Assembly (NCBI GenBank): GCA_019054805.1
Contig: JAHQIY010000009.1
Span: 1,736,001 to 1,800,000, forward strand
Length of the DNA stretch: 64,000 nt
Source: Brachionus manjavacas
Taxonomy: Eukaryota > Rotifera > Eurotatoria > Ploima > Brachionidae
Direction: 5' to 3'
The notes below the pieces were generated by a model. It was given only the letters and a program-made list of their open reading frames with translations. It did not search any database and was not told where the DNA came from. Each line of letters opens with the position of its first letter. Position 1 is the first letter of the stretch. Both the position numbers and the translations under genes were made by a program. This document shows, piece after piece, positions 5,452 through 49,771 of the stretch.

Positions 5452-5460
5452 TATAAAAGG
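5452..5460 (+). promoter_or_regulatory. TATA box of repeat-gene copy 1
   Basis: TATAAAAGG, 77 bp before the ATG at 5529. A TCACTTC motif about 30 bp downstream (5482) is well placed to be the initiator. The whole stretch from TATA to ATG recurs almost unchanged in the other copies. Confidence 0.75.
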
Positions 5461-5528
5461 TGATTTTTTGATATTGAAAAATCACTTCGAATAAATAAGT
5501 ATTCTATTAAATAATAAAATTTAGAAAA

Positions 5529-5858
5529 ATGTCTTGTGGATTAAACTTGTCAACCCCATTGGAATTCTCCGCTCCATTGGCTGCTCCATCATTGCCATTG
5601 ACTTCAGGTTGGGAATTCTCCGCTCCATTGTCATTGCCAGCACCACAATTGCAAGCACCTCAATTGCCAGCTGCTCCATTGACCACTGGATGGGAATTCT
5701 CCGCTCCATTGTCATTGCCAGCACCACAATTGCAAGCACCTCAATTGCCAGCTGCTCCATTGACCACTGGATGGGAATTTTCCGCTCCATTGTCATTGCC
5801 GACTCCTCAATTACAAGCTCCAAGCTGCGGATCATCATCATTCGCTGGATTCTTCTAA
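5529..5858 (+). CDS. 27-residue-repeat protein family, copy 1 (109 aa, 3 repeats)
   Basis: Unrecognised small protein. It starts MSCGLNLSTPLEFSAPL, carries three GWEFSAPLSLP... units of 27 residues (81 bp), and ends PSCGSSSFAGFF. The repeat is rich in Pro, Leu, Ala, Ser and Gln with one Trp, and the only Cys residues lie in the two end caps. There is no basic-hydrophobic signal peptide. All frames stay open because the unit is a multiple of three. I chose this frame because its ATG is the first after the promoter, and because differences between copies are silent in it (CAATTG against CAGCTG, both Gln-Leu; TCC against TCG; TTC against TTT). AATAAA-like signals follow within about 60 bp. A structural, self-associating protein is a guess from composition. 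Confidence 0.75.
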   Translation: MSCGLNLSTPLEFSAPLAAPSLPLTSGWEFSAPLSLPAPQLQAPQLPAAPLTTGWEFSAPLSLPAPQLQAPQLPAAPLTTGWEFSAPLSLPTPQLQAPSCGSSSFAGFF

Positions 5859-6740
5859 ATTTATTTATTTTAAAATTTTAAAATAGATCTGTTTCATTGA
5901 AATTAAATTTTATTCTTTATCCCTTCTACTGTTTCTAGTAAAGAAGCCTTAGCTCAATTATTAATAGAACCTGAATTATATTGATCTAAATGAATTAAAT
6001 TGATTCTGAACATTTCGAGTCAAAAGACTTCGACAAGAGATAATTTTAATAAATCAAAAGAACACATAGAAGAGACTGTTGAGAAAAATTAACTAAAAAA
6101 ATAAATCAGCTATTTCTTTTTAAAATTTAATAAATTTTAGTCTTTGTGTTTAATTTTTTTTTGTTGCTTTTTGTTGCTTCAGAGTTGCTTTTAAAACACA
6201 AGCCTTTAGTCAAAGAAGTTATGACTTTGACTTAAAAATTGTGACTTAAAAAAAGTCTGATTTCCGTCAAAAAACAAAGTTGTTTAAATATATCAATTTT
6301 TAAATTTTAGAATAGAGTTTTATAAATATGATTTTCTTTTATAAAATTGTTTAATGTTCGAGGGTTATTAAAGTTTTAAAAAAGCAATAATTTCATATAA
6401 TTACCCATGGGCTTTAAAGACATGTCCTGCTTAATATCCCAAGGATATTACGCGAGAAAATACAGTATAAAATTTAATATAGAGACCGCAACTTTATTTT
6501 ATAATATTTTGAATAAAATAAATCTAATTATCATTTGCCTAGATTTTATTTTTTTTTCATAGATCTTTAAAAAATTTGTATTGGGATATTTTTAGATGAT
6601 TATTTTTATCTAATAAAATTTTAAAAAATATTCTTTGAAATAAGTAAATCTGTTAAAGAGTTGATAAATTCAAATATAAAATGACACAATTTGTAAACAA
6701 CTGACTTTTTTATTTATCTTCTAAAAATATTCAAACTTTA
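5859..6740. other. AT-rich non-coding region after copy 1
   Basis: The first 120 bp are the 3' flank of copy 1, and a decayed copy of it occurs at about 9690-9805. I see no gene or structured element in the remainder. Confidence 0.5.
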
Positions 6741-7313
6741 AAATGGTTAAATTTTTTGAGTTTGAATTACGAAATGTATCCAATGTTGAAACAACAATGT
6801 AAAAGTGCGATATTTCAAAACTTTTTTCAGTTTCAAAAAAAAAAAAATATTTTAAGTTAATATTGCAAGCATGAAAAACTTGGTTTTTTTTAATAAATTT
6901 TGACTTTGGGTCTATGATATGATGATCCTTAAGATAATATTTATAATTTAAAAAACTATCTACTTTGTGTTTTCCATTTTTCATAAATTGAGTTTTTGTT
7001 AAAATGCATCAAACGAAAGTCAATTAATACAAAATTTTTTATTTTGAAGCAGCATTAGCTCGGTACAGATAAATAAAAAAATAAAATAAATTATTTAAAA
7101 TTTAAAAAAATAATTCTTCATTGTTTTATTCCAAATAAAACTTATTCTATTTCACTAAAGAGTTTAATTTCAAATATGTCAATTCTCGCAATTTTAACTT
7201 AAAATAATTTTTTTTTTTTTTTAAACTAAAAAAAGTTTTGAAATATCGCACTTTTTCAATGTTATTTCAACATTGGATACATTCCGTAATTCAAACACAA
7301 AAAATTAAACCAA
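6741..7313. mobile_element. Foldback/MITE with about 100-bp inverted arms
   Basis: The left arm (about 6741-6843) and right arm (about 7210-7313) are reverse complements over about 100 bp. Both contain AATGTATCCAATGTTGAAA and an AAAAGTGCGAT block. One arm alone recurs at about 45313-45400 and in unit 2 of the tandem array at about 53280-53360. The interior has no ORF of note but carries a LINE-A type tail at 7046-7071. Confidence 0.75.
7046..7071 (+). repeat. LINE-A 3' tail motif
   Basis: GAAGCAGCATTAGCTCGG followed by TACAGATA and an AAATAAA-rich tail. It matches the 3' end of the LINE-A element at 25321-25350 (reverse strand), so it is probably a very 5'-truncated insertion. Confidence 0.6.
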
Positions 7314-8223
7314 ATATTATTTAAGATTTTTTTCCCATAATAAAGTTACTAAGTAGAGATTAAAGGAATTGTTGTATGAAATTAAGCGATAATGGGGTCA
7401 TACGGATTAATTTTTAGGTTAGGGTTAGTTTTTGGCAAAAAACGGTAAAACTCCATATAAAATTCCTTTAGATTTCTAAACAAAAAAGCCATATTAACAT
7501 TATTTTTATGAAAAAATTTCTTTATTTAAAAGGAAACAAAGGTTAGTTAATAGTATAAAATTTGTAACATTTTTGATTTGAATTAAAAATTAATAATTTA
7601 ATCGAATTTAACAATAATTTCTGAAAAGTATTCTAGGACCCTAAACTATTAGAATACGTTCTGTTTTTTGGATGTTGATGATGAAAATCGGTAAAAAACA
7701 TAATCTTAAAAAGTTGTCATCCCTTTAACACATTTAAACATTACACATATCTTAGAATTATTTTACAGTAGTCAAATTTCTAAGTTTTCTAACTTTATTT
7801 TTGTAATTAATAAAGATTTATAGAAGATTAAGTTAATTAATTATTAATTTAAAGAAACCCTTTATTAATTTAAATTTTTTGCTTCTCAAAAAAATTTAAT
7901 AATAAAAAATTATCAAAATCTACAAAATCAACAACTTTTTAATTATTAATCAGAAGAAAATGTAATCGAATGATAAATTCTGAATCATAAAGTGATTATG
8001 ATTTTGAAGCCAAATAATAGTGTGTATGGTAAACTTGAATCCTTTTTGAAAAGTTTGTTAATGAAGTATTTGTGATTTTATTGCCAAACAAAAAATCACT
8101 AAAAGAATAGAGAGAAAAACTCGAAAATCAATATACAATCAATTGAATATATTGATAAGAAAATATTTAAAAAAAAACAAAAGAGCAAAAAAAATGAGAA
8201 ACAAAACAAGCATAAAATTTGAC
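7314..8223. other. AT-rich non-coding region, 5' flank of copy 2
   Basis: No gene found. From about 8020 the sequence resembles the 5' flanks of copies 3, 4 and 6 (a conserved AATCAATATACAATCAATTG stretch), so it belongs to the duplicated gene segment. Confidence 0.5.
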
Positions 8224-8232
8224 TATAAAAGG
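8224..8232 (+). promoter_or_regulatory. TATA box of repeat-gene copy 2
   Basis: TATAAAAGG, 75 bp before the ATG. Like copy 1 it is preceded by AAAATTTGAC rather than by the AAAGAATG(A/G)A of copies 3-7. Confidence 0.75.
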
Positions 8233-8298
8233 TGATTTTTTGATATTGAAAAATCACTTCGAATAAATAAGTATTATATTAAGTAATAAAATTTAAAA

Positions 8299-8709
8299 AT
8301 GTCTTGTGGATTAAACTTGTCAACCCCATTGGAATTCTCGGCTCCATTGGCTGCTCCATCATTGCCATTGACTTCTGGTTGGGAATTCTCCGCTCCATTG
8401 TCATTGCCAGCACCACAATTGCAAGCACCTCAATTGCCAGCTACTCCATTGACCACTGGATGGGAATTCTCCGCTCCATTGTCATTGCCAGCACCACAAT
8501 TGCAAGCACCTCAATTGCCAGCTGCTCCATTGACCACTGGATGGGAATTCTCCGCTCCATTGTCATTGCCAGCACCACAATTGCAAGCACCTCAATTGCC
8601 AGCTGCTCCATTGACCACTGGATGGGAATTCTCCGCTCCATTGTCATTGCCAACTCCTCAATTACAAGCTCCAAGCTGTGGATCATCATCATTCCCTGGA
8701 TTCTTCTAA
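8299..8709 (+). CDS. 27-residue-repeat protein family, copy 2 (136 aa, 4 repeats)
   Basis: Same architecture as copy 1 with one more repeat unit. N-cap MSCGLNLSTPLEFSAPL, four GWEFSAPLSLP units, C-cap PSCGSSSFPGFF. One Ala-to-Thr change lies at the end of the first repeat (GCTACTCCA), and several changes are silent in this frame. A 3' flank with AATAAA follows, then a tRNA-Asp gene on the other strand 630 bp downstream. That segment is duplicated around copy 3. Confidence 0.75.
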   Translation: MSCGLNLSTPLEFSAPLAAPSLPLTSGWEFSAPLSLPAPQLQAPQLPATPLTTGWEFSAPLSLPAPQLQAPQLPAAPLTTGWEFSAPLSLPAPQLQAPQLPAAPLTTGWEFSAPLSLPTPQLQAPSCGSSSFPGFF

Positions 8710-9339
8710 ATTTATAAAATAAATCTGTTTCATTGAAATTAATTTTTATTTTTATCTCTTTTAATTATTAAACTTAAGTTCTACTTAAATTAAGGTTAAA
8801 TTATTAATAAGCTTTACAATAAACAATGCTCTATTTTGTTAAGACTTAATGAATAAGACATAATACTATATTTATGAATGATAAAGGCTCAAAATCTAGT
8901 TAAGATTTAAATTATTAAATTAAATAAGTGATAAATTAGAAATTTTGTAATATAAATTTAAACTTTTAAAGGAAAGTGAGAAATATTCTGAGAATGATAT
9001 GGAGGTAGAAAAGTTGTTTTGTGGTAATGAGAGAGGTTAGGACAATCAGATAATTAAAAAGTAAAAAATTTGTACTTTATAGAAATTAAATTCAAAATTT
9101 TTGCTAATTAATATTTTAATTACTTATTTTGATTTAACTTGTAGTTTTCTGATCATATTGTAAAGTACAGAAAGTACAAAAAGGAAACTGATTTTTTAGT
9201 AGCTAAATATTATTGCTTATCCTTCTGTTGAGATTTTCCTTCTTTGCTCGTAGAAAAATACCAAGAACAATATACCAAAATGCTAGTTTAAAGTTATTTT
9301 TAAATATTGAGGGTTAAAATAATGCCAACAAAAAAATAA
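8710..9339. other. Duplicated 3' flank between copy 2 and tRNA-Asp
   Basis: Non-coding. It is collinear with 20234-20936 after copy 3 (shared GGAGGTAGAAAAGTTGTTTT and TGGTAATGAGAGAGGTTAGG). Its right part matches 36890-37124 after copy 5 (shared TTTCCTTCTTTGCTCGTAG). Confidence 0.75.
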
Positions 9340-9411
9340 CTCCGTGACGGGGAATTGAACCCCGGTCTCCCGCGTGACAGGCGGGGATACTCACCACTAT
9401 ACTATCACGGA
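9340..9411 (-). tRNA. tRNA-Asp (anticodon GTC)
   Basis: A 72-nt cloverleaf on the minus strand. Acceptor arms are TCCGTGA and TCACGGA with discriminator G. The anticodon loop CTGTCAC sits in a CCCGC/GCGGG stem. The A box TAGTATAGTGG and B box GGTTCAATTCC match the polymerase III consensus, and a T run follows. No intron. Sequence identical to three other copies in the window. Confidence 0.97.
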
Positions 9412-9809
9412 CTTAATAATTCCGAGTTCTTTATAATTTTTCTTATAAACTTGAAAAAATATCTAATTTAACTTTTTAGAATGATTTTTTTGATTTTTAT
9501 TAATCGATTTTTAAATGGATTCTAAAAAAAAATTTATTTATCTACATGCTTTTCCACAAAATGAATGCTTATTCAAAAGTTTGTTAATGATTTAATTTGT
9601 AGGTTTATTGACCAAGATAAGAGCAATTAATTACTATTAGAAAATAAAAGACTGAGACAGGTAAAACAAATCATATGAACAAATCGATTTAAAAAATTTT
9701 TAAAATTTTAAAATAAATCTGTTTCATTGAAACTAAATTTTATTATTTATCCCTGCTACTGTCCCTATTAGAGAAACTTTAGCTCAATTATAAATAGAAC
9801 CTGAACTGT
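9412..9809. other. tRNA flank and relic 3' flank of a lost repeat gene
   Basis: From about 9690 to 9805 the sequence matches the 3' flank of copy 1 (5862-5975: AAATAAATCTGTTTCATTGA, then TTTAGCTCAATTA) with no coding sequence before it. This suggests a deleted copy. It abuts the Ty3/gypsy remnant. Confidence 0.5.
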
Positions 9810-9811
9810 TC

Positions 9812-10300
9812 TGTTCGAAAACTCTACCACATCATCAATGTAAACCATACACTTCTCCCAAGTCAAACCCTTCAAAACTTTATTCATGAGCCTTTGAAAC
9901 ATTGCTGGACCGTTGCATAGTCTAAATGGCATAACAGTAAACTGAAATAAGCCTTTATCAGTAGCGAAAGCTGTCTTTGGTCTTACTTAGGTTAGTTTAC
10001 TTAGGTTGGCACCTAAGAAATCTCAATTGAGTTATATTGCCAATATCCCCGGTCTGCGTCCAACGAACTGAACCATTTTGAGCCAGCCAAAGCTTCAAGC
10101 GTTTCGTCTATCCGTGCAACGGATAAGAGTCTTTCACCGTAATTGCATAGATTTTTGTAAAATCAATGCAAAATCTATACTTTGGTTTACCATCTAGACT
10201 CATTTTTGTCACTAACAACACTGGTCCCGACCAAGGACTCTCACTTTCCTGCACCATTCCTTCCGCTCTCGTTCACTAGTTAACTTACCTCTGCATGATC
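9812..10300 (-). pseudogene. Ty3/gypsy reverse transcriptase fragment
   Basis: The minus-strand translation shows the blocks PWSGPVLLVTK, YRFCIDF, SLDADRGYWQ, KTAFATDKGLFQFTVMPF, LCNGPAMFQRLM and the catalytic VYIDDV (Asp-Asp at about 9831-9836). A short insertion near 9975-10020 separates the RGYWQ and KTAF blocks, and stops interrupt the frame. It would copy element RNA into DNA in an intact element but is not functional here. Confidence 0.8.
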
Positions 10301-10491
10301 TTCTGGAGACATTCGATACTGCCGCTGTCTGATTGGTATATCTTTGTTGTAACTATTTTGTGTTGAATCAGTTTTTTCAAACCATTAGAATCTTTGTCCC
10401 ATTTAAACACATCCTACTAGTTTTTAAGCATGCTTATAAGCTGATCTTGCTGTGTAGGATTAAGATCTTTGTTAATTTTTAGCAGAGCGTA

Positions 10492-10889
10492 TGACATAAT
10501 ATCGAAAATTAAAAAAATCAAAAGTTAAAAATATCGACACTAATTAATATCGAAAGGTCGAAAAAAAAATATATCGAATTAGACACTTTTGTGAAATATA
10601 GAAAGAAAAAATATAGAATTCGTTAAGATAGGCAAATAAATGTTGAAAAAACTTCTCCTCTGCTTTAGGCTCGTGCTAGATAAAACAGCTCCAGTTGATA
10701 ATTTAGCAAAGTCACTCTCCATGTTACTTTGCTCTAAACATAAAAATTCAATTACTTTTGCTAACGTTAAATTGCTTTAAAGATTAATTTTTTTAAAATT
10801 TCTCTATGCTGTTTTTCGACATTTCACCTTTCGATATTAATTAGTGTCGATATTTTTTCCTTTCGATATTTTTAATTTTCAATTTTATG
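10492..10889. mobile_element. Foldback element inserted in the gypsy remnant
   Basis: The left arm (10492-10560, ACATAATATCGAAAATT...) and right arm (about 10815-10889) are imperfect reverse complements of about 70 bp. Both contain AATATCGACACTAATTAATA or its complement. It lies between the protease-linker and RT parts of the gypsy element, so it inserted after that element. Confidence 0.65.
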
Positions 10890-11184
10890 TCCATTCCCAG
10901 TTTGGCAACATTGGATCAAACTTAAGTCTAGTATTTCTTGTTTCCAGCTCAGTACTGTTCAATGCTAAATTTCGTTTTTGAACCACAGTTTTAGCTTCTC
11001 GACACATTTGACCATTTCCTTCAAACGCTTCACCAGCTTCTTTCAAATATCCCACTATCTCCTTAGGTTCTAATTTTACAGTGCCTGTTGTTGCATTAAG
11101 CGCACTCACCACAATCTGGTCAGTTTCTTTCTCCACATTGTGTAAACTACAAGCAAATCGAACGCCTCTTACATCTATATTCAA
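10885..11184 (-). pseudogene. Gypsy pol linker between protease and RT (fragment)
   Basis: A 99-codon open stretch in the direction of the gypsy element, between its protease and its RT. No catalytic motif is visible. Its 3' end runs into the foldback arm. I treat it as element sequence by position, not by homology. Confidence 0.45.
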
Positions 11185-11559
11185 ATATCAAAGTTCTTTT
11201 TAACTCCATTATTCCAAATTTTGCGTAAATTAATTTTTCAGAAAATGACTCAATATTAGTTGCTTGCTTTACGAAACAATTGACCCTATTCACACAAGCT
11301 TACGGCACACATGACTTTGTTCTTATTAATATTTTGTCACTAAAATGATCCACTAATTCATGGTTCTTTTTCAAAAAATCTCGCCCTATGATACACTGCT
11401 CAGATCAAAAATCTTTTGACACAACAAACAGCTGTCCCTATCCAATCTTCAATCTTAATCAAAAAATGTCCAATGTTACATGAAATCGTTCTTGTCTCAG
11501 TCGCCATTTCCAACTACGTACAAACCACTAGAGCCATTTTCAACTTACTCAATTTTTTG

Positions 11560-11770: not shown

Positions 11771-11772
11771 GT

Positions 11773-13221: not shown

Positions 13222-13300
13222 CGCACTTTAATCACTCACTTTTTTGATGATAAACCCGTGTTTAAATCATATGCATAAAAAACGTGACTGGTGTTTTTAA
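13222..13300. repeat. Direct repeat, right copy (possible LTR remnant)
   Basis: Imperfect copy of 12372-12450, about 850 bp further on, just before a gag-like region. Confidence 0.4.
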
Positions 13301-19745: not shown

Positions 19746-19754
19746 TATAAAAGG
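19746..19754 (+). promoter_or_regulatory. TATA box of repeat-gene copy 3
   Basis: TATAAAAGG, 77 bp before the ATG. The upstream CATGAATAGCAAAGAATG is shared with copies 4-7, so it is a candidate proximal element. Confidence 0.75.
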
Positions 19755-19822: not shown

Positions 19823-20233
19823 ATGTCTTGTGGATTAAACTTGTCAACCCCATTGGAATTCTCGGCTCCATTGGCTGCTCCATCATTGCCATTGACTTCT
19901 GGTTGGGAATTCTCCGCTCCATTGTCATTGCCAGCACCACAATTGCAAGCACCTCAATTGCCAGCTGCTCCATTGACCTCCGGATGGGAATTCTCCGCTC
20001 CATTGTCATTGCCAGCACCACAATTGCAAGCACCTCAATTGCCAGCTGCTCCATTGACCACTGGATGGGAATTCTCCGCTCCATTGTCATTGCAAACACC
20101 TCAATTGCAAGCACCTCAATTGCCAGCTGCTCCATTGACCACTGGATGGGAATTTTCCGCTCCATTGTCATTGCCGACTCCTCAATTACAAACTCCAAGC
20201 TGCGGATCATCATCATTCCCTGGATTCTTCTAA
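19823..20233 (+). CDS. 27-residue-repeat protein family, copy 3 (136 aa, 4 repeats)
   Basis: N-cap as in copy 1, four GWEF units, C-cap PSCGSSSFPGFF. The third unit differs (LSLQTPQLQAPQ) and the last has LQTPSCGS. The ends of the first two units alternate Thr-Ser (TCC) and Thr-Thr (ACT). The 5' flank (about 19390-19822) is duplicated at 22620-23087 before copy 4. The 3' flank with tRNA-Asp is duplicated from the copy 2 locus, so this gene links two duplication events. Confidence 0.75.
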   Translation: MSCGLNLSTPLEFSAPLAAPSLPLTSGWEFSAPLSLPAPQLQAPQLPAAPLTSGWEFSAPLSLPAPQLQAPQLPAAPLTTGWEFSAPLSLQTPQLQAPQLPAAPLTTGWEFSAPLSLPTPQLQTPSCGSSSFPGFF

Positions 20234-20936: not shown

Positions 20937-21008
20937 CTCCGTGACGGGGAATTGAACCCCGGTCTCCCGCGTGACAGGCGGGGATACTCACCACTATACT
21001 ATCACGGA
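20937..21008 (-). tRNA. tRNA-Asp (anticodon GTC)
   Basis: Identical 72-nt sequence and cloverleaf to the gene at 9340-9411. It lies 703 bp after copy 3 on the opposite strand. Confidence 0.97.
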
Positions 21009-21362: not shown

Positions 21363-22085
21363 ATGGCTAAACCGATGTTGTTAATAATTTTAGTGGTGCT
21401 TCAGAGTCACTATTTGACTGCATGGAATTGTTCAATTGAGAAAAACGAAGCGGTTCAATTATTCAAGTCCAAAACTCTTACCAACCAATATCCAAATTTT
21501 CCAAATGACCCTTATTTGAACCAAACAGAACATTCTAATCAGCAAATAAACCAAACACTTTCCAACAAAGAAATTGTATGTGCCATCAAGTACCAAGACA
21601 ATGACCGAATCAAATACGATATCAAAAATTTTCAATCAGCTTCTTCAGCAATCAACAATGGATACATAGTGACCCATCAAGGCCGCTGTGGAGCTTGCTC
21701 AAGTTTAAATGATTTGGCCATTTATTTATCAGTAAACTTAACTGCACCAGCCAGGAAATGTGGAATGGTTGCCACTCTTTCTGAATCAAATGGACTAAAT
21801 TGCTTAAAAGAAATCGGATTTTCGGATCAATGTGCCCAAATTTGGCTATTCAATACTAAAAATACAAGAAGAGAATGCTTTGGTGTATGCATTATGGCAT
21901 GGATTTTGAATGAACCGTATACAAAGCCTGATGGAACTTTGAATAATTGTCTTCAATGTGATGAAGATAAATCGGGTCCAATATTTAAATACTATTCGGG
22001 AAGAACTAGAAGAAATTCTGGTATTAGAAAGGAAATCGACAGACCGACAGATGAAGTCTATAGTATAACCCATTGTTATTACTAG
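21363..22085 (+). CDS. Secreted Cys-rich protein of unknown function (240 aa)
   Basis: ATG in an AAAATGG context starts a clear signal peptide (MAKPMLLIILVVLQSHYLTA, then WNCS). The mature part has about 12 Cys, including the pairs CGAC in HQGRCGACSSLNDLA and CLQC in NNCLQCDEDKSGP. The blocks DQCAQIWLFNTKNTRRECFG and KYYSGRTRRNSGI follow. Several N-X-S/T sites suggest glycosylation. I have an impression of similar unnamed proteins in other eukaryotes that share the CGAC, CDEDKSGP and GRTRRNSG blocks, but cannot check this. CGAC recalls thiol-disulfide enzymes, yet no thioredoxin fold is evident. Uninterrupted single exon; AATAAA signals at about 22169 and 22183. Confidence 0.88.
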   Translation: MAKPMLLIILVVLQSHYLTAWNCSIEKNEAVQLFKSKTLTNQYPNFPNDPYLNQTEHSNQQINQTLSNKEIVCAIKYQDNDRIKYDIKNFQSASSAINNGYIVTHQGRCGACSSLNDLAIYLSVNLTAPARKCGMVATLSESNGLNCLKEIGFSDQCAQIWLFNTKNTRRECFGVCIMAWILNEPYTKPDGTLNNCLQCDEDKSGPIFKYYSGRTRRNSGIRKEIDRPTDEVYSITHCYY

Positions 22086-23010: not shown

Positions 23011-23019
23011 TATAAAAGG
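23011..23019 (+). promoter_or_regulatory. TATA box of repeat-gene copy 4
   Basis: TATAAAAGG, 77 bp before the ATG, in the same context as copy 3. Confidence 0.75.
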
Positions 23020-23087: not shown

Positions 23088-23579
23088 ATGTCTTGTGGAT
23101 TAAACTTGTCAACCCCATTGGAATTCTCCGCTCCATTGACTGCTCCATCATTGCCATTGACTTCTGGTTGGGAATTCTCCGCTCCATTGTCATTGCCAGC
23201 ACCACAATTGCAAGCACCTCAATTGCCAGCTGCTCCATTGACCACTGGATGGGAATTCTCCGCTCCATTGTCATTGCCAGCACCACAATTGCAAGCACCT
23301 CAGCTGCCAGCTGCTCCATTGACCACTGGATGGGAATTCTCCGCTCCATTGTCATTGCCAGCACCACAATTGCAAGCACCTCAATTGCCAGCTGCTCCAT
23401 TGACCTCCGGATGGGAATTCTCCGCTCCATTGTCATTGCCAGCACCACAATTGCAAGCACCTCAGCTGCCAGCTGCTCCATTGACCACTGGATGGGAATT
23501 CTCCGCTCCATTGTCATTGCCAACTCCTCAATTACAAGCTCCAAGCTGCGGATCATCATCATTCCCTGGATTCTTCTAA
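23088..23579 (+). CDS. 27-residue-repeat protein family, copy 4 (163 aa, 5 repeats)
   Basis: Longest member, with five GWEF units. Units 2 and 4 both carry CAGCTG for Gln-Leu where the others have CAATTG. This suggests that a two-unit block (162 bp) was duplicated inside the gene. One N-cap change (SAPLTAPS). No tRNA gene follows within the next 3 kb, unlike copies 2, 3 and 5. AATAAATCTG lies just after the stop. Confidence 0.75.
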   Translation: MSCGLNLSTPLEFSAPLTAPSLPLTSGWEFSAPLSLPAPQLQAPQLPAAPLTTGWEFSAPLSLPAPQLQAPQLPAAPLTTGWEFSAPLSLPAPQLQAPQLPAAPLTSGWEFSAPLSLPAPQLQAPQLPAAPLTTGWEFSAPLSLPTPQLQAPSCGSSSFPGFF

Positions 23580-27248: not shown

Positions 27249-27320
27249 TCCGTGATAGTATAGTGGTGAGTATCCCCGCCTGTCACGCGGGAGACCGGGG
27301 TTCAATTCCCCGTCACGGAG
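27249..27320 (+). tRNA. tRNA-Asp (anticodon GTC)
   Basis: Same 72-nt sequence as the other three copies but on the plus strand, followed by a run of T. It is not next to a repeat gene. Confidence 0.97.
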
Positions 27321-36380: not shown

Positions 36381-36389
36381 TATAAAAGG
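36381..36389 (+). promoter_or_regulatory. TATA box of repeat-gene copy 5
   Basis: TATAAAAGG, 79 bp before the ATG. Like copy 6 it has two extra bases (ATTTCGAAAAATC) between TATA and the start. Confidence 0.75.
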
Positions 36390-36459: not shown

Positions 36460-36789
36460 ATGTCTTGTGGATTAAACTTGTCAACCCCATTGGAATTCTC
36501 GGCTCCATTGGCTGCTCCATCATTGCCATTAACTTCTGGTTGGGAATTCTCCGCTCCATTGTCATTTCCAGCACCACAATTGCAAGTACCTCAATTGCCA
36601 GCTGCTCCATTGACCTCCGGATGGGAATTCTCCGCTCCATTGTCATTGCCAGCACCACAATTGCAAGCACCACAATTGCCAGCGGCTCCATTGACCACTG
36701 GATGGGAATTCTCCGCTCCATTGTCATTACCAACTCCTCAATTACAAGCTCCAAGCTGCGGATCATCATCATTCGCTGGATTCTTCTAA
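36460..36789 (+). CDS. 27-residue-repeat protein family, copy 5 (109 aa, 3 repeats)
   Basis: Three GWEF units. Distinct changes are LSFPAPQLQVPQ in the first unit and CCACAA in place of CCTCAA (silent, Pro-Gln) in the second. C-cap ends SSSFAGFF as in copies 1, 6 and 7. A tRNA-Asp gene follows 335 bp downstream on the other strand. Confidence 0.75.
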   Translation: MSCGLNLSTPLEFSAPLAAPSLPLTSGWEFSAPLSFPAPQLQVPQLPAAPLTSGWEFSAPLSLPAPQLQAPQLPAAPLTTGWEFSAPLSLPTPQLQAPSCGSSSFAGFF

Positions 36790-37124: not shown

Positions 37125-37196
37125 CTCCGTGACGGGGAATTGAACCCCGGTCTCCCGCGTGACAGGCGGGGATACTCACCACTATACTATCACGGA
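37125..37196 (-). tRNA. tRNA-Asp (anticodon GTC)
   Basis: Identical to the gene at 9340-9411, and the preceding AATATTGAGGGTTAAAATAA is shared with that locus. Confidence 0.97.
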
Positions 37197-37877: not shown

Positions 37878-37886
37878 TATAAAAGG
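37878..37886 (+). promoter_or_regulatory. TATA box of repeat-gene copy 6
   Basis: TATAAAAGG, 79 bp before the ATG. The last 150 bp upstream are nearly identical to copy 5. Confidence 0.75.
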
Positions 37887-37956: not shown

Positions 37957-38367
37957 ATGTCTTGTGGATTAAACTTGTCAACCCCATTGGAATTCTCGGC
38001 TCCATTGGCTGCTCCATCATTGCCATTGACTTCTGGTTGGGAATTCTCCGCTCCATTGTCATTGCCAGCACCACAATTGCAAGCACCTCAGCTGCCAGCT
38101 GCTCCATTGACCACTGGATGGGAATTCTCCGCTCCATTGTCATTGCCAGCACCACAATTGCAAGCACCTCAATTGCCAGCGGCTCCATTGACCTCCGGAT
38201 GGGAATACTCCGCTCCATTGTCATTGCCAGCACCACAATTGCAAGCACCTCAATTGCCAGCTGTTCCATTGACCACTGGATGGGAATTCTCCGCTCCATT
38301 GTCATTACCAACTCCTCAATTACAAGCTCCAAGCTGCGGATCATCATCATTCGCTGGATTCTTCTAA
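37957..38367 (+). CDS. 27-residue-repeat protein family, copy 6 (136 aa, 4 repeats)
   Basis: Four units. The first carries the CAGCTG silent variant, the third starts GWEYSAPL (Phe to Tyr) and ends LPAVPLTT. It lies 1.2 kb after copy 5, the closest pair in the window, with a shared promoter and C-cap, so they are probably a recent tandem duplication. Confidence 0.75.
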   Translation: MSCGLNLSTPLEFSAPLAAPSLPLTSGWEFSAPLSLPAPQLQAPQLPAAPLTTGWEFSAPLSLPAPQLQAPQLPAAPLTSGWEYSAPLSLPAPQLQAPQLPAVPLTTGWEFSAPLSLPTPQLQAPSCGSSSFAGFF

Positions 38368-42399: not shown

Positions 42400-44590
42400 T
42401 GTTTACATAGTTCAGGTTTCAGGAAAAAAGGAGGAAATGGTTAGGTAGAAATTACACAATGGAGTTGGGTATTCAATATATCTTACTTCGAAACCTTCTT
42501 TGTATTCCTCAACAAGTCTGACAACCAATGGAATAGAATGACTCAGTCCTGCCCTAACATATCTCTCACTCAACTCAAAAAATCGATTTGAGACTGTAAG
42601 AAGTTTAAGTTTATTAAAAGCTTCATGATGCACGATGTTGGAGGGAGTATCATATTTTAACTTAAGGATAGATCTTACTGCTGAATTCTGAATTGCTTGT
42701 AGTTTTTTTATATTATTTTCTGAAAATGAATTCAAGCAAGGAAAAGAATAGTCTAAAATTGATCCGACTAAAATAGTCTAAAATTGATAATCTAAATTTT
42801 GTAAGTTTAGATTATCACTCTCTTTTTTGTACCTAGAGAAGACTACTGAACACGATTTTTTAAATGATATCTTTATTTTCACTTAATAAGCCATTGTTCT
42901 AGTTTGTTGGTGTATTTATTTATCTTATTTTCTAGGTTCCCATTTTTGTTATAAATGAAGAATGTAACTAGATCATCTGCGAAAAGAAGAGATTATACGT
43001 TATTTCTAGTCATAATTTTTCATATTTAAATGTTTGTTTTTCACTTATTAGTTTGAGATTCACATTTAATTTCAAATAAGATTTATCCTTTAAAAGTTTC
43101 TTTTTTTATTGTTTGGTCTCTCAACAAAAGCATAGCGTGAGTTATTGAATTAATACTATCTTCCTGAGTGACTCAGGAAGATAATAAACAAAAACCACGT
43201 TTATTACAATATTACAATCTGATGTTCCCCGGTGTTTCCTAAATCCAGATTGCTCTTGGAAAAGGAGTTAATTTTGTTCCAAAAAATTGTATAATCTTGA
43301 ATAAGAATTAATGTTAAAAAACTCACCAAGAAATTTATTAATAGAAATCAGGTCCTGATGCCGCTTCTTTTTTAATTTTAAAGCGATAATTAATTCATTT
43401 AAGCAAATTTGAACATTAAAATTACGCTGATCATAATTTCTAAAGAATTCAAAGTTAAAATTAATATTTCGAAATCTTTCTTAGTATCAATTAAATCAGA
43501 ATTAGAACTAAATATTGAAGTTAAGAGTCCTTAGATGCATTTTCCCTTTTCATCATTAGTTTTGAATTCTTTGTCACATGAAATCAAATTTGGGATTAAA
43601 TTTTATCTAATTTTTGGTCTGAATTTATATGTTTTTTACAAAAAGGGTCTACTTGTAAATGGGTTTTTTCCTATCTTCTTGATAAAATCAAACAAATTTT
43701 GATTCCAGAATTTTTTTAAAGAGGCCTTTAACTCAAATGTTTTTGAGCTTTTGAAAGCGAGATTTGTGGAAGTTTTTTCTTACTATCCTACTTTCTTTTA
43801 TCAGAATAACAATGTTCGGGGAAAGACTGATTTTGTAGATTTTCTGAGAAAGATAAGGAATGCTTTTATGAGAAGCAGAAATGATTTTTTTTGTAATTTT
43901 ATTATTTATTTGATCTATAGTGATGGATTTTTTAGGAATAAAAACCATTTGAGAATTTAAAATCTCACTAAATAATTTCCAGATTGTTTTCTTTTAATTA
44001 AATTTTTTAGCTGTTGATTTTTTTTCTAATTGATAGCCAATCGAAATTAATGTTTCGATTGGGAAATGGTCACTAGTCATGTCTTGACTTTTTAAAACAT
44101 TGAAGTCTATTTTTGTCAATTAATGAAGATGAAACCTAAAAAAAGATCAAGAAATTCAAAGTAACTCTTGTAAAAAATATTGAAAGTAGGGCGCTTATCA
44201 TTGACCACTGAAATGTCTAACATTGATTATTCTTTCCAACATTTTACCGTTTTCATTTTACCCTATGCAGCCTATTTGCTTTGTTCTAGCGTTTAGATCA
44301 CCACTTGAAATAAAGTTTCTTCATATTTTAATAACTGTTGGGTGGACTATAAAGTCTAAATACAACTAATTCATTATTCTTCCTAAAATCAGTTTTATCC
44401 AAAGGAGTTCGGAATTGAATTCCTCATTAGAAAAATCTTGTATAAATTGAATTCCTTCTTTAATTAAAAAAGAAGTATTCTGAATTGCTCGTAGGACTAC
44501 TCCTCCTCCATCCTTTTTGCGTAGTTTTGTTATGTTCTGTTATTTAAGATTGCTAAGCCATAACTCGAATTTGCATAAAGAGCTGAAGAG
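42400..44590 (-). mobile_element. LINE-A, degenerate but nearly full coding span
   Basis: On the minus strand: endonuclease blocks at about 44530-44040 (RMEEE/GGGVVLRAIQNT, SGDLNART, SDHFPIETLI), then finger and palm pieces (EAASGPD, GFRKHRG near 43215, ADDLVTF near 42975). The C-terminal part at 42735-42412 (IQNSAVRSILKLKYDTPSNI) resembles the element at 25.5 kb. Many stops. Its right part (from 42899) is the left part of the tandem unit and recurs at 50831-52550 and 58608-59148. Confidence 0.7.
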
Positions 44591-44945
44591 CTTTTTTATT
44601 TTTTAATTTTTATTTTTTTTATCTATTTATTTAAATTTTTTAAATAGATTTTTTAGCGTCCAAAAAATTTTAATAAACTAGGGGGCCGTTTCATTTTAAT
44701 TTTATTTGGTGTCAATATTCAAAAAAAAGTTACATTTTATTTAATCAGGTTAATCTTAATTTATATTTTTAATTTAAATTAAAAGGAGTAATTAATAAAA
44801 ATTTGGGAGAAAAATCAATATTTTGGTGTTTTTTATTCAAAATTTAGGGTATCGATTTTATAGAGCCAAAAATTAGTTATTGCTGATTTTCATTTGAATT
44901 AGACATTTTTCATGCTTTCTCGATTTATTTTTTATTTAAAAATTA

Positions 44946-45111
44946 GGTTGATAGACATAACGTAATTGCTCGATTTTACCGACATGTCGTAATGTACCTA
45001 ACGACATTTCGTTAAATAATCTTTTTAATGTTATAAGACACTGTCGTTAATTCTGAATACCCAGGTATAATGACATATCGTTTAAATTGAGCAATTACGT
45101 TATATCGAACC
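44946..45111. mobile_element. 166-bp foldback element in unit 1
   Basis: Arms of about 45 bp sharing ATAACGTAATTGCTC, in inverted orientation (GGTTGATAGACATAACG... and ...CGTTATATCGAACC). The middle has GACATTTCGTTAA/TTAACGACAG-like pairs. Copied in unit 2, absent from unit 3. Confidence 0.65.
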
Positions 45112-45312
45112 AAGCCTCATGGTATAAAATTCGATTCTAAATTAAATTTTAAAGCAATGATAGATGTTAAAAAATAATGTTGTAATTCAATACCAAATTT
45201 ATTGGCATGTTTAAGTTGATAATTAATTCAAAAAATCATTTAAATACAAAGAGTTTATCTTTAGATTTCAAAATTAATCTATGAATTAATTTAAATACCG
45301 AATTGGTTTTTT

Positions 45313-45400
45313 TTTTGTTTGAATTACTAAATGTATCCAATGTTGAAATAACATTGAAAAAGTGCGATTTTTCAAATATTTTTTTAAGTTTCAAAATAAA
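45313..45400. repeat. Single arm of the 6.7-7.3 kb foldback
   Basis: Shares TTGAATTACTAAATGTATCC- and AAAAAGTGCGAT-type stretches with the arms at 6741-7313, in one orientation only. Confidence 0.6.
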
Positions 45401-45499
45401 TAATATTTGTTTTTCAGATTTGAAATTAATCTCTTTAATGAAATAGAATGAATTTAATTTTTGTTTCGAAATTTGGAAAAATATTAAAAATTCTGTTTT

Positions 45500-46343
45500 A
45501 ATTTAAAGGAATAGAGAATGTTGTCAAAATTTATGCAGAGATACTAAAATATTCTCGCAAACTGTACCAGAAATAAGCGCACTGAGACTACAATCAGATT
45601 TAGATTTAATTTTCAAGTGGACTCTAGATTGGCTTCTTCTCCTCAACACATCAAAACGTGTGGTTATGCATTACGTTTATAAAAACAATGAATTCACTTA
45701 TTTTATTAATGGTAAACAGTTATCAACGTCAGAAACCGAAAGAGATCTTGGAGTTATCTTCAATACAAATCTTAAATGGAAAAATCAAGTAAAAGAGGCT
45801 TCAAACAAAGCAAATCAAATGTTAGGTCGCATCAGGAAATCATTCGCTCGTTTTGAATGTAAGTTATTTAGACCATTGTACTTAACATTTGCTCGTCCTC
45901 TTTTGAAATATGCTGTGCCTGTATGGTCTCAATTAGAAACAAACCGTATGAAAGCAGATTTAAGGCTTTGAACATTCCAAATCTGGTGGAAAGAAGAAAA
46001 AGAGGTGATCTAATTCAATTATACAAGTTCATGCATGGAATAGAAATGGTTGAAACAACAACAATTTTAATGTCACCAAAATCCAAGGAAGAGGTCACAG
46101 CTTCAAATATCACAAAGAAATTTCGAGGCCTCAACAAAGAGATAACTTTTTTTTCAACAGAACCACTAACATATGGAACTCACTGCCAAATCAATTTGTT
46201 GAAGCCCCCAATGTTAACAGCTTTAAAGCAGGCATTGATTGCTGGAGGAGCAGCAATCAATCACATCAGCTGTCATAGTGTGCCTTATCAGCACACTCGC
46301 TGGCCAGGCAGCTACAGTCAAAACTCCTACTACTACTACTAAT
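45500..46343 (+). pseudogene. LINE-C RT thumb and 3' end (unit 1)
   Basis: The frame 45567-45971 reads KWTLDWLLLLNTSKR, SETERDLGVIFNTNLKW and RPLLKYAVPVWSQ. After a deletion-type frame change, 45966-46342 reads VERRKRGDLIQLYKFMHG. Two extra T in a T run (about 46150) shift the last part. The 3' end has TGTGCCTTATCAGCACA, a perfect GTGTGC/GCACAC-type hairpin, then a GCTGGCCAGGCAGC palindrome and a (CTA)n tail at 46326-46342. Confidence 0.8.
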
Positions 46344-47467
46344 TTTAAATAATTCATTTATTTATTATTTACCAAGCAAATGCCCATTTAGAATAAAAAC
46401 ATATGAAAAAACTAAAAATATAGTTAATAATATAAAATTAAATAAATAAAAAGAATAAAAATGAGCATTAAAAAGAAAAAAAAAAAGATAATTAATTCAT
46501 TTTGATTAAATTTTATATTCAATCATTAAAAAACTGGATCTAGTCGGTTAGGTGAACCATTGTTCACTTATTATCCGAAAAATTCTTGTTCTCAGGTTTT
46601 GTGAACTATTGGTTCAACCATTTTTTTTGTTGAAAATAGAATTAGACGAACAATTTTTAGATGGGAACAAATTGAATAAAGCTATTTAATAGAATGGCTA
46701 ATTCATCAAACTAACTGAAAAATTAGTTATTAATTTTTTGTTTTTTTTAATTTGAAGGAGCTTTGCTCTAATCTGTTTGACTTGGTATTACCCTTTCAAG
46801 AGTCCCAAATACCCAGATGCACTTTTCTCCTAAAATCTTTTCCTTTAAACATAAATAATAAAAATTAAAGAAAATTAAAATTAATTTTTCAAACTTTAAG
46901 TTTTTTACCTTGGGGAAAAAAGATTCGTCTATTTCGAAAAATTAATCTTGTCCGCTCAAATTTAAATTTTCTATGTAATCATTTTTCTCTCTTATTTTTT
47001 ATTATTAGCATTTTTAATTTTTTCATCTAAATTGATGAAAAAATATCAAAATAATTTAACAATCTTTAGATTAGGTGAAATTCATAAAACCTGAGAACAA
47101 TAATTGCTCCATTAACAGGTGAACTATAGTTAATCTAACTGACAAGACCCGAAAGACTTTGTTTTTATTAAATTTTTCCTTTAGTGATAATTCATTTTCG
47201 TTTGTTACATTCTAACAAATACTCAATTTATGAAAAATGGAAAACAGAGCGTAGACAGTTTTTGAAACTACATGATTCAACTACTTTTTGAAATATAAAA
47301 TTCGAACTAAACCTTTCAAAAATCAGTATATAAATATAAATTTAAAAATCGACTTCGAAAATTTGTTGAAAATAATTTTATTTTTTAAATCTTCATAACA
47401 AATAAAGCATTTTACTTAAGAATTATTTTTTTTTATTAAAAGATTGATTTTGATATCCAAAGTTAAA
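46344..47467. other. AT-rich part of the tandem unit with LINE-A-like tail
   Basis: 46753-46775 (GAAGGAGCTTTGCTCTAATC) resembles the LINE-A tail. 47250-47460 is the segment shared with 33890-34110. No gene recognised. Confidence 0.5.
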
Positions 47468-47737
47468 CTATCTGAATCGAAATGCTATTTGGAATTGATT
47501 ATCAACTTCAACATGCCAATTAATCATTTTCAAAAGAAGAGAAAAAATGGATAAATTTTCCATAATTTCTTTTATTTGAGTCACGCTCTCGGCTATTTTT
47601 TCCTGACCGGCCACGTACTCCGGTTTGTTAATTGATGGAGATTTTAACTTTCCGAAAATTAGTATGTCGAGGATCAAAGCTAGTGCTCTAAACAGATCGA
47701 TAGTTTGGAAGAACAATTTATGACTCTGCATGTACAA
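47468..47737 (-). CDS. Unrecognised 89-codon ORF in the tandem unit (unit 1)
   Basis: Minus-strand frame MYMQSHKLFFQTIDLFRALA, then ILIFGKLKSPS and EKIAESVTQIKEIMENLS. Its less AT-rich half (47570-47740) looks like real or recently real coding sequence, and acceptor-like TGCAG precedes SHKLFF, so it may be an exon remnant. Present in all three units; a single extra T breaks it in unit 2. I do not recognise the protein. Confidence 0.35.
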   Translation of the reverse strand: MYMQSHKLFFQTIDLFRALALILDILIFGKLKSPSINKPEYVAGQEKIAESVTQIKEIMENLSIFSLLLKMINWHVEVDNQFQIAFRFR

Positions 47738-47974
47738 GTGCCTACCTTTTGCGAAAAAGCATTTTACCTGGTCACAACCGAAAGGTTTTATTCTTTGAGT
47801 ACTGAAGTAATAAAAAGATTTTGAAAATAAATTTTTTGGTTTAAGATGAGATATTTTAACTCAAGTAAAAACTAAACTTTTACATTCAGTTGTTAAGGTT
47901 CACATATTTGAAATTAGTAAAACAATTGTTCATTTTAATTCAGATAAAATTCAAAGCAGCAATGATAAAAATAA

Positions 47975-48430
47975 TATTTAAATGCGCCATAACTCTGCCG
48001 TAAGCCGGTCCCAAGCCCAGGATGAGAAAAGAGGAGGGTGGTGGCAGCCACACAATGTGGTCTTCTACGAGTCCAAAGAAGAGCTGTATTACGGGTACAT
48101 AGATTTACGAGTCTTTGTCCTAGTCTTGTCGTATGAGGGTGCCGCTGGCTTCGACCATCACCCAGTATAGAATCTTAACAGAGCAAGAACCTGTTTTACA
48201 GCTGACCCTCTTTGGATAGCCGTAACTTTGGAAGCGTTAAAGTTAAGGCATTCTCTCTTAAAGAGATTGTCGCTTGGTTTGTGGTTCCAAGCTAGTCTAA
48301 ATAGTTGTCGAGTTCGCAGTCTTTAAGTGCTCGGATGAGTGACGCTGTTTATGATGAACGTCCCACGTGCTTCTTAGGGGAAGACGCCGTCATAACTATG
48401 CCTTATGCCGGTCCCAAGCCCGGATGAAAA
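47975..48430 (+). mobile_element. RTE/Rex-like 5' block, present twice
   Basis: The G+C-rich block starts CATAACTCTGCCGTAAGCCG then GTCCCAAGCCCAGGATGA (47988-48022) and has a second, similar copy at 48388-48424 (GCCGGTCCCAAGCCCGGATG). CCGG...CCGG can form a small stem. From memory, a GCCGGTCCCAAGCCCGG motif followed by GGAGGGT occurs near the 5' end of RTE/Rex-type LINEs in other animals; I cannot verify this here. No long frame. Confidence 0.45.
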
Positions 48431-48439
48431 AATACCCAC

Positions 48440-49100
48440 AAGGAAAAGTCTAATCAAAACTCGAAGTAAAATACTCTATAATAAAGGTAATTTTGTGGCT
48501 CTAAAAGAAAATCTTGCCTTGAAGTTAGGGAAATGATCGTCTTAGAAGCTAATTCTATTCTAAATACTTTGATCCCGGTATACCGTGAGGGTGTTTCGAA
48601 AGTTCATTCAGGACGTATAAAAACGTATGCATACTGGTAGTAAAGGGAGGTTAAGAAAACGAGGATGAATTATGAGTTGTGTATTATCAGAAATTGTAAA
48701 AATAGTACCGAGCGTATTTTTTCATGATCAGAGAATAAAAAATTATCGTGTTAGGTCTTTAAACGATGGCTCTGGAAATTTAGTCACAGATAAACAAATA
48801 CTTGCTTTATCTGGATAAACAGAAGACTTCCTTAGATGACGGCATACAACCAAGTGAACTTACGAACTTTTCTTTCTCTCTTGCAGTAAACTTCACGAGA
48901 CTTTTCATAGCTTCATACACCTGTGGAAGCTTTCCAAAGGCATTTCATCAATTTCAAAAATGGAACTCGTACAGAAGCTTTAAATTACAGATCGATATCG
49001 CTATCATCACTTGCTTGTAAAATAATAGAGAGAATTCTGCCACAATTTTATGAAGAGATAACTGCACTAAAACCTGTTTCAAACTAAGACGCCTCTAATA
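48440..49100 (+). pseudogene. LINE RT finger region scrap (unit 1)
   Basis: Pieces in shifted frames: KNYRVRSLNDGSGNLVTDKQ (about 48748) and TSLDDGIQPSELTNFSFSL then FIASYTCGSFPKAFHQF (48820-48960). This is the pre-RT and first RT block of a LINE (D-G-I...L...S...G..P..W). It may belong to LINE-C. Repeated at 56919-57137 and 62591-62809. Confidence 0.6.
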
Positions 49101-49445
49101 CTAAAAATATCTAGAGTGTAAGATTATTAAAAGCTATCTTTAAAGAAGGACACCGTTTTTTTCTTTAGAAAAGTCTTTAATTTAATAAAGGAATAATTTA
49201 ATATAGAAAATTAAATCCTATTCAAACAAAAATACATCTCTCTTCGAAAATTAAATTGTATTGTTTTCAACATGCACTATAACTAAAGGTTTACTTAAAA
49301 TAATAAAATCATAAGAGCAATTAAATGAGCAATTAAAATATTAGTTAACAAAAATTTTTAATTTAATTCACATAAAGTACGATAATAAAAAATAAGATTA
49401 TGTTTCAATGAAACAGATTTATTTTAAAATTTAAAAATAAATAAT

Positions 49446-49694
49446 TTAGAAGAATCCAGCGAATGATGATGATCCGCAGCTTGGAGCTTGTAATTGAGGA
49501 TTTGGTAATGACAATGGAGCGGAGAATTCCCATCCAGTGGTCAATGGAGCAGCTGGCAACTGAGGTGCTTGCAATTGTGGTGCTGGCAATGACAATGGAG
49601 CGGAGAATTCCCAACCAGAAGTTAATGGCAATGATGGAGAAACCAATGGAGAAGAGAATTCCAATGGGTTTGACAAGTTTAATCCACATGACAT
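49446..49694 (-). CDS. 27-residue-repeat protein family, copy 7 (82 aa, 2 repeats)
   Basis: Shortest member and the only intact one on the minus strand. Two GWEF units. The N-cap has diverged (LSNPLEFSSPLVSPS) and the last unit has LPNPQLQ. Promoter and flanks are conserved. It lies inside tandem unit 1; the equivalent genes in units 2 and 3 lost their 5' part and promoter in one shared deletion. Confidence 0.7.
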   Translation of the reverse strand: MSCGLNLSNPLEFSSPLVSPSLPLTSGWEFSAPLSLPAPQLQAPQLPAAPLTTGWEFSAPLSLPNPQLQAPSCGSSSFAGFF

Positions 49695-49762
49695 TTTTCT
49701 AATTTTTATTATTTAATAGAATACTTATTTATTCGAAGTGATTTTTCAATATCAAATAATCG

Positions 49763-49771
49763 CCTTTTATA
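49763..49771 (-). promoter_or_regulatory. TATA box of repeat-gene copy 7
   Basis: TATAAAAGG on the minus strand, 77 bp before the ATG, preceded by the same AATAGCAAAGAATGG as copies 5 and 6. Confidence 0.75.

Follow-up and report, generated by a model that had tools for sequence, protein, structure and literature searches.

The analysed stretch of 64,000 nucleotides (hereafter the window) carries a cluster of seven ATG-to-stop open reading frames, all intronless, and two truncated relics on contig C9 of Brachionus manjavacas. An earlier sequence-only reading had proposed seven intact genes and two relics, and both were found where it had placed them (Table 1); its outer coordinates, 5452 and 49771, fall in the TATAAA boxes that precede genes 1 and 7. 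The GWE[FY]S patch occurs 3, 4, 4, 5, 3, 4 and 2 times in genes 1 to 7, the order of repeat units that had been proposed, with a spacing of 27 residues throughout the window. The statement that the proteins differ only by whole units holds for this spacing, but the paralogues also differ by substitutions, and gene 6 has GWEYS in one of its units. Exactly two cysteines occur in each of the seven proteins, the first at residue 3 and the second nine positions ahead of the final residue, which agrees with the single Cys predicted near each end.

Table 1. Genes, TATAAA boxes and relics in the window.
Feature	Positions	Strand	Remark
TATAAA box of gene 1	5452..5457	+	-77 from ATG
Gene 1	5529..5858	+	109 aa, 3 units
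TATAAA box of gene 2	8224..8229	+	-75 from ATG
Gene 2	8299..8709	+	136 aa, 4 units
TATAAA box of gene 3	19746..19751	+	-77 from ATG
Gene 3	19823..20233	+	136 aa, 4 units
TATAAA box of gene 4	23011..23016	+	-77 from ATG
Gene 4	23088..23579	+	163 aa, 5 units
TATAAA box of gene 5	36381..36386	+	-79 from ATG
Gene 5	36460..36789	+	109 aa, 3 units
TATAAA box of gene 6	37878..37883	+	-79 from ATG
Gene 6	37957..38367	+	136 aa, 4 units (one GWEYS)
TATAAA box of gene 7	49766..49771	-	-77 from ATG
Gene 7	49446..49694	-	82 aa, 2 units
Relic	57564..57647	-	last 27 codons + stop only
Relic	63236..63319	-	in next tandem duplicate, truncated alike

Both relics retain just the 3' end of the segment that carries gene 7, a deletion of ∼ 340 bases having removed the promoter, the ATG and the 5' part; the counterpart of window positions 49533-49872 is missing from both copies. 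A large chitin-binding (CBM_14) protein is encoded 1.9 kb upstream of gene 1. CBM_14 domains are common in this genome (at least 140 matches, with 150 of 187 candidates scored).

The GWEFS genes across the genome

The family extends past the window. Two genome searches, which listed 19 and 24 matches with gene fragments included, resolve to 14 intact genes encoding proteins of 55-163 aa (predicted masses 5.7-16.8 kDa) and the two relics; we refer to these as the GWEFS branch. A TATAAA box lies 71-79 bases before the ATG in 14/14 genes, and the two cap cysteines, at residue 3 and length minus 9, are equally universal (two Cys per chain in 13 genes, three in one). AATAAA follows the stop within at most 120 bases in 13 of the 14. 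Outside the window the spacing of the GWE[FY]S patches is also 17, 21, 25 or 26 residues: genes on contigs C4 and C6 keep the patch and vary the spacer length, whereas patch and spacer are both near-invariant in the C9 cluster. A MULE transposase sits between the two C6 copies; casual inspection noticed none next to the remaining copies. The proteins are rich in Pro (17.8%), Leu (17.3%), Ser (14.9%) and Ala (13.9%). Lys is absent from all 14, neither Lys nor Arg occurs in 12, and the 13 proteins analysed for composition contain no His and a single Tyr. The copies carry their promoter and 3' flank and look like segmental duplications; a transposon gene was rejected on the same grounds.

In all five pairs compared between C9 and C4/C6 paralogues, the sense frame gives a dN/dS of 0.16-0.24 (dS 0.45-0.55), far from the value near 1 that the sequence-only reading had linked to a non-coding minisatellite. 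These are therefore almost certainly real genes under purifying selection, and the multicopy coding family that had been proposed is borne out by these ratios together with the caps and TATA boxes kept in every intact copy. Long antisense ORFs (e.g. 8441-8692, minus strand) were rejected, since in their frame dN exceeds dS in 5/5 pairs and stops interrupt the C6/C4 copy in 4/5. Antisense frame 1 gives a ratio of 0.20-0.31, probably because it shares third positions with the sense frame, but a stop interrupts it in one or both sequences of all five pairs. A minisatellite or pseudogene array with fortuitous ORFs would account for the 81-base tandem repeats and the two truncated relics. However, the dN/dS values, the conserved caps and promoters and the actin-like codon usage (below) contradict it, and we regard it as virtually dismissed.

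Codon adaptation indices (CAI), computed against a reference set of five actins and RPL15, are 0.66-0.78 for 14/14 GWEFS-branch genes; five control ORFs score 0.455-0.576 and two of the actins 0.68 and 0.71, although the repeats inflate z in this comparison. RPL15 itself, though in the reference set and surely highly expressed, scores no higher than 0.554, and codon bias therefore tracks expression imperfectly. With this reservation, the codon usage suggests that the GWEFS-branch genes are probably strongly expressed. Within the first 35 residues the hydropathy of an 11-residue stretch peaks at 0.73-1.13, versus 2.7 and 2.8 in two secreted controls; by this check no signal peptide was seen in the GWEFS branch, as the sequence-only reading had maintained, and the proteins are probably unsecreted and cytosolic. 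A hidden signal exon is unlikely, as one would scarcely fit between the TATA box at about -77 and the ATG; CAG or TAG stands 7-8 bases before the ATG in 10/14 genes (absent in 4), so cis- or trans-splicing could still occur there. AlphaFold2 returned a mean pLDDT of 50.6 and no secondary structure, and the chains are predicted to be intrinsically disordered.

Cap-sharing genes and distant relatives

A genome pattern search combining promoter and start (TATA...ATG M[ST]CG) found two more kinds of gene with the same caps and different repeats. The Trp-repeat branch has 24 open loci, of which three were read (L090, L092 and L093); these keep the caps and repeat WNTLPL, not GW. L088 is single-copy, has 14 Cys in 105 residues (13% Cys) and shows weak codon bias (CAI 0.50). 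Among five extra pattern matches three were dropped (C1:5962194, C3:2893426 and C4:1989115), which are one sequence type without a usable ORF (two were read). An M[ST]C start with a Cys 7-10 residues before the last is present in 18/18 genes read (the 14 GWEFS-branch genes, L088, L090, L092 and L093), and TATAAA lies 71-88 bases before the ATG in 17/18, L093 having TTTAAAT in its place; the M[ST]CG start and TATAAA were both built into the pattern that found L088 and L090, and the 18 genes, with three of the 24 Trp-repeat loci among them, come from ∼ 39 loci.

The GWEFS family appears to form one branch of a larger superfamily with ∼ 39 loci. Cross-branch similarity is limited to an hhalign match over only 12 cap columns (E 3.7e-4, probability 37%) and one low-complexity BLASTP pair (E 3e-5). 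Searching the genome with GWEFS-branch proteins retrieved neither the Trp branch nor L088, and the reverse searches were equally negative, so shared ancestry of the branches is only a possibility. Since spacings vary and genes with MSCG/MTCG caps carry other repeats, the family is not defined by its 27-residue unit; the description as a 27-residue-repeat family is right within the window and does not extend beyond it.

The claim that no known family is involved is upheld by protein and HMM searches, which gave no Pfam, NCBIfam or PDB relative. Gene 4 matched no Pfam or NCBIfam family; L088, L090 and L093 had no Pfam match and L092 weak sub-threshold ones only; the sole PDB match was to gene 2 (E 0.24), with none for L092 or L088. 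A search of 5.8 billion proteins yielded one tentative relative, P0121, an ENA environmental protein of 92 aa whose 21 matches in the rotifer genome are without exception to GWEFS-branch genes (best E 6.5e-6). P0121 resembles the branch in its three PLTTGWE[FL]S patches (15-residue spacing) and EFS-like start but has another C-terminus and no Cys, so disulfide ends are perhaps not universal; the similarity may be a low-complexity, chance or convergent match. Viral and prokaryote genome collections held no relatives of the GWEFS profile or of P0121, and phages gave a single match to P0121 at E 0.09. No paper holding the family's motif strings was found in the literature, nor did the accessible portions of work on rotifer lorica, lamina, keratin-like and repeat proteins contain such sequences. 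The Cys-capped repeat family is apparently undescribed.

A candidate disulfide-chained scleroprotein

The rotifer lorica is described as an acid-resistant scleroprotein (PMC10246822), and an account of Asplanchnopus places an intracytoplasmic lamina in the rotifer epidermis (PMC13403294). We propose, at slightly less than even confidence, that the capped proteins are small, unsecreted, disordered, disulfide-chained scleroproteins, most plausibly of this lamina (lorica). Each chain would be a spacer-and-sticker polymer, with Pro/Leu/Ala/Ser/Gln spacers, variable in length among paralogues, between PLT[TS]GWEFS patches and one Cys fixed near each end. The aromatic patches would condense the chains in the cytoplasm, after which the end cysteines would join them head to tail through disulfides; L088, with its 14 Cys, could act as a branching cross-linker. 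Under this mechanism unit number would vary because mainly caps and patch matter. For disulfide chaining as such we consider the case evenly balanced, and the lorica as the site is a tentative assignment. Two larger lorica proteins were reportedly described in Brachionus plicatilis by Bender and Kleinow in 1988, which the masses of the GWEFS branch do not fit.

The same composition and Cys caps would suit any tough material, and the proteins might instead be disulfide-capped components, lacking a classical signal peptide, of pedal-gland cement, of the resting-egg or amictic eggshell or of male or sperm structures. The CBM_14 neighbour of gene 1 points the same way, though that domain is common in the genome. 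Glue and eggshell are extracellular, however, and the hydropathy check saw no signal peptide; we hold this reading to be unlikely, if the nearest competitor. Lineage-specific amplification of small proteins serving stress, resting-egg desiccation or anti-parasite functions, with Cys ends for redox sensing or palmitoylation, is less likely again: copy number has grown by duplication and the Cys at residue 3 could be acylated, but unit number differs between copies and the hydrophobic, Lys/Asp-poor composition is unlike that of desiccation proteins, which are hydrophilic. Cytosolic regulators whose disordered GW repeats serve as short linear docking motifs, e.g. of the Argonaute-hook type, would explain the one Gly-Trp per unit in a chain predicted to be disordered and a patch that persists as spacer length changes in the C4/C6 genes, less so the C9 cluster where both are near-invariant. 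A regulator would not be expected to have invariant terminal Cys, actin-like codons and so many copies, and the Trp-repeat genes share the caps yet use WNTLPL; we judge this very improbable.

To return to the scleroprotein proposal, its broadest form, held slightly more tentatively than the lorica assignment, is a rotifer corneous-protein system evolved independently of vertebrates, in which ∼ 39 intronless, mostly TATA-driven loci with Cys caps and interchangeable modules (GWEFS, WNTLPL, a Cys-rich linker) would form the lamina or lorica as their chains condense in the cytosol and join end to end through disulfides. To our knowledge, hardly anything has been reported on the genes behind rotifer armour, and these loci offer candidates with a common layout. 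If true, the system would be a striking convergence with the corneous proteins of hair and feather and a new minimal, length-variable design of disulfide-chained biomaterial. Having almost no trypsin sites, the chains would escape ordinary proteomics. CRISPR editing is reported to work in B. manjavacas (PMC10395877).

Among known systems, secreted cuticle, peritrophin and eggshell proteins have an N-terminal signal peptide, which hydropathy did not reveal in the GWEFS branch. GW/Argonaute-hook proteins share GW motifs in a disordered chain (by prediction here). Elastin-, abductin- and resilin-like elastomers are likewise built of Pro-rich disordered repeats in which aromatic or hydrophobic patches recur, but they are secreted, and their cross-links run through Lys or Tyr, residues all but missing from the GWEFS branch. 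Amniote corneous proteins (keratin-associated proteins, corneous beta-proteins, loricrin; for loricrin see PMC9138667) resemble the rotifer genes in their short, intronless, clustered coding sequences and the rotifer proteins in an MSC-type start, Cys near the ends and low-complexity repeats of variable number. They also lack a signal peptide, as the rotifer proteins seem to. The likeness extends to the cap-sharing, Cys-rich L088; no sequence relationship was detected in Pfam or NCBIfam. The GWEFS branch differs in its rotifer host, its Trp-Glu-Phe patch and its two Cys per chain. True keratin-associated proteins lie far above that number, and among the rotifer genes read only L088 is rich in cysteine. 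To the rotifer lorica scleroproteins the likeness is by description, and the capped proteins may be among them; lorica and lamina belong to the same animal group, and an intracellular tough layer would suit unsecreted, cross-linkable chains.

Genes and coding status of the GWEFS branch

The GWEFS branch, whose proteins carry GWE[FY]S units and a Cys near each end, is a real and apparently undescribed protein family, and is probably one part of a wider Cys-capped superfamily. The window spans C9:1736001–1800000. Seven intact genes and two relics lie in the window, as the sequence-only reading had stated, and a scan of the whole genome (114 Mb, 61 contigs) for further copies brings the total to 14 intact genes; protein searches gave 19 matches with gene 4 and 24 with a C6 copy. 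The 27-residue unit holds throughout the window, where GWE[FY]S spacing is 27 without exception. Outside it, spacings of 17, 21, 25 and 26 occur (13 genes compared), so the unit length of the branch is not fixed. All 14 proteins have their first Cys at residue 3 and another nine residues ahead of the last residue; none contains Lys and 12 lack Arg. TATAAA lies 71–79 bases 5′ of the ATG in all 14 genes, and AATAAA within 120 bases downstream in 13.

Locations of the family genes, related loci and neighbouring features (C, contig)
Feature	Location	Orientation	Remarks
Genes 1–6	window	forward	
Gene 7	window	reverse	
Three further C9 genes	up to 22 kb past window end	reverse	55, 92 and 99 aa
C4 gene	C4		75 aa; single copy there
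Two C6 genes	C6, ∼ 7.5 kb apart	opposite	102 aa each; near-identical
Distant gene	C9:1934524		57 aa
L088, 14-Cys protein	L088 91–405 = C9:1643230–1643544		105 aa; ∼ 98 kb before gene 1
L090, Trp-repeat protein	C6:2123045–2123233		63 aa
Trp-repeat loci (12)	C6:2054164–2123741 (2.05–2.12 Mb)		
Trp-repeat loci (10)	C5:4065967–4088747 (4.066–4.089 Mb)		
Trp-repeat loci (2)	C7:3271831–3272644		
Segment with gene 7 (∼ 8 kb)	window 42.9–51.4 kb		
Two copies of this segment	window 50.8–59.2 kb; 59.2 kb to window end		97.6–99.8% identity
RAGATH-11 RNA (three copies)	window 48252–48371, 56216–56335, 61888–62007		106 bits (gathering 79.4)
tRNA-Asp (GTC) (four copies)	window 9340–9411, 20937–21008, 27249–27320, 37125–37196		among family genes
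Another tRNA	L078 3185–3256		between genes
MULE transposase	L076 2438–3199		between two inverted near-identical C6 family copies
Open frame with CBM_14 stretches	window 2–3631	minus	at least 1210 aa (1644 in genome)
240-aa protein	window 21363–22085		

The alternative of a non-coding minisatellite, with dN/dS near 1 across copies, does not hold: five pairs of C9 genes with C4/C6 paralogues give 0.17, 0.16, 0.23, 0.21 and 0.24 (Nei-Gojobori, protein-guided alignments). The C4 gene against a C6 gene gives 0.13, and nine other pairs (eight among C9 copies, one of the C6 twins) give 0.11–0.45 on few changes; in all, 15 of the 78 possible pairs among 13 genes were compared. Between gene 1 and the C6 copy, 14, 5 and 26 changes fall at codon positions 1, 2 and 3. 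One antisense frame, among five readings outside the sense frame, mirrors the sense dN/dS (0.20–0.31) but is interrupted by a stop in all five pairs. The long antisense ORF was rejected as coding, dN exceeding dS in its frame in five of five pairs.

Codon usage was scored against five actin genes and RPL15 (a sixth actin locus, whose longest ORF began upstream, was omitted). CAI is 0.657–0.777 for 13 GWEFS-branch genes and 0.678 for the distant gene. The controls scored 0.494 (homeobox), 0.576 (240-aa protein), 0.507 (an ORF that we take to be phosphatase-like) and 0.455 (each of two reverse transcriptases), RPL15 0.554 and two actins 0.679 and 0.710. The z values of 5.7–12.1 are inflated by the repeats; the distant, C4 and C6 genes have the same bias. 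We take this bias as indirect evidence of high expression.

Duplication and gene neighbourhood

Both copies of the gene 7 segment lack window positions 49533–49872, which suggests that a single ∼ 340-base deletion, preceding the second duplication, made both relics. The RAGATH-11 copies sit in these tandem segments, as do repeated ORFs without a Pfam match. Matches in flanking DNA suggest that some gene and tRNA copies were duplicated together. The open frame at the start of the window contains four chitin-binding peritrophin-A (CBM_14) stretches, and the GC content of positions 1–4000 is 50% compared with 25–36% in the other 4-kb blocks. The 240-aa protein, probably secreted, shares 93% identity with a protein from Brachionus plicatilis HYR1, and 75% (over 67%) with a B. 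calyciflorus protein, which identifies the source as a Brachionus, probably a member of the B. plicatilis complex. Its distribution is patchy: the best 120 of 416 matches include rotifers, ciliates, one jellyfish, one copepod and a Spirochaetota MAG, besides numerous environmental contigs.

Relatives and the wider Cys-capped set

Protein and profile searches agree with the sequence-only reading, which recognised no known family: Pfam contains no relative of gene 4 or the distant gene, NCBIfam none of gene 4 and PDB none of gene 2. With gene 2 as a single query, 5.8 billion proteins were searched and no relative emerged among the candidates scored, which were the 7985 of suitable length with the most words in common. 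This database does contain B. plicatilis HYR1 proteins, and the absence of relatives among those predictions may be an annotation gap. Under the same candidate limit, a profile search gave one match (E 8.8e-5), a 92-aa environmental protein (P0121) in which three PLTTGWE[FL]S patches stand 15 residues apart and Cys is absent. Searched against the genome it matches GWEFS-branch genes alone (best E 6.5e-6), and we tentatively regard it as a relative. The viral and prokaryote genome collections yielded no relatives of either the branch profile or P0121.

The pattern TATAAA, 56–74 bases, ATGWCNTGYGG occurs at 17 places in the genome and its reversed control at 10, so the pattern alone proves little. 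Twelve places belong to the GWEFS branch; of the five others, four were read. Two of these share a non-coding sequence and were rejected; the fifth place, on C3, is of this type too, judging from the letters at the site. The other two are clear ORFs, L088 and L090. L088 starts MSCGFSPLTTSW (the MSCG cap), has CSPCARPAIQT-type repeats and 14 Cys, and ends NPYAGFF; it matches only itself in the genome, and its sole match to the distant gene is at PLTT.W. L090 has an MTCGLSLTAPL start, WNTLPLT repeats and a GCGSTATFW end. Its 48 genome matches resolve into 24 open, stop-free loci, the Trp-repeat branch, and one weak C10 match with a stop; 22 of the 24 loci form 11 head-to-head pairs. The branch has the layout MTCGLSLTAPL...WNTLPL...GCGS...W; the three of its 24 loci that were read (L090, L092 and L093) all have an M[ST]CG start, a Cys 7–10 residues before the last residue and a Trp end. 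L092 has TATAAA at −88; L093 has TTTAAAT instead.

The start and TATA of L088 and L090 were search criteria and hence are not independent evidence; short open frames, repeats, PL...W motifs, CG/GFF C-termini and the L092/L093 caps are independent evidence for the putative superfamily. Between branches, hhalign aligns only the 12-residue N-terminal cap (E 3.7e-4, probability 37%) and BLASTP one low-complexity pair (E 3e-5); genome searches with GWEFS-branch, L088 and L090 proteins never crossed into another branch. Common descent is likely but unproven. Codon bias in L088, L090, L092 and L093 (CAI 0.50–0.62, z 2.8–5.0) is weaker than in the window branch.

Protein properties and proposed role

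Pro, Leu, Ser and Ala, then Phe, Gln, Thr and Gly, dominate the 13 GWEFS-branch proteins analysed (pI 4.05–4.09, 5.7–16.8 kDa). AlphaFold2 with 13 aligned sequences gave a mean pLDDT of 50.6, a pTM of 0.11 and no secondary structure, and disorder is therefore predicted. Hydropathy agrees with the earlier reading in showing no classical signal peptide. A CAG/TAG lies 7 bases 5′ of the ATG in nine C9 genes and 8 bases 5′ in the distant gene; among the 14 genes, only gene 2 and those on C4 and C6 lack such a site. Splicing at this site is possible, but an upstream signal exon is unlikely because the TATA lies at about −77.

The conserved aromatic patch, spacers that differ in length, a unit number that varies between copies, a Cys fixed close to each end and the lack of a secretion signal suggest a linear, disordered, length-tolerant chain that could be linked end to end. 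We infer a corneous-like scleroprotein. An intracytoplasmic lamina has been described in the rotifer epidermis (PMC13403294), and the lorica has been characterised as an acid-resistant scleroprotein (PMC10246822, citing Bender and Kleinow 1988). A set of unsecreted proteins that is highly expressed and can be cross-linked would fit the rotifer lamina or lorica, and we suggest a role there for the GWEFS branch.
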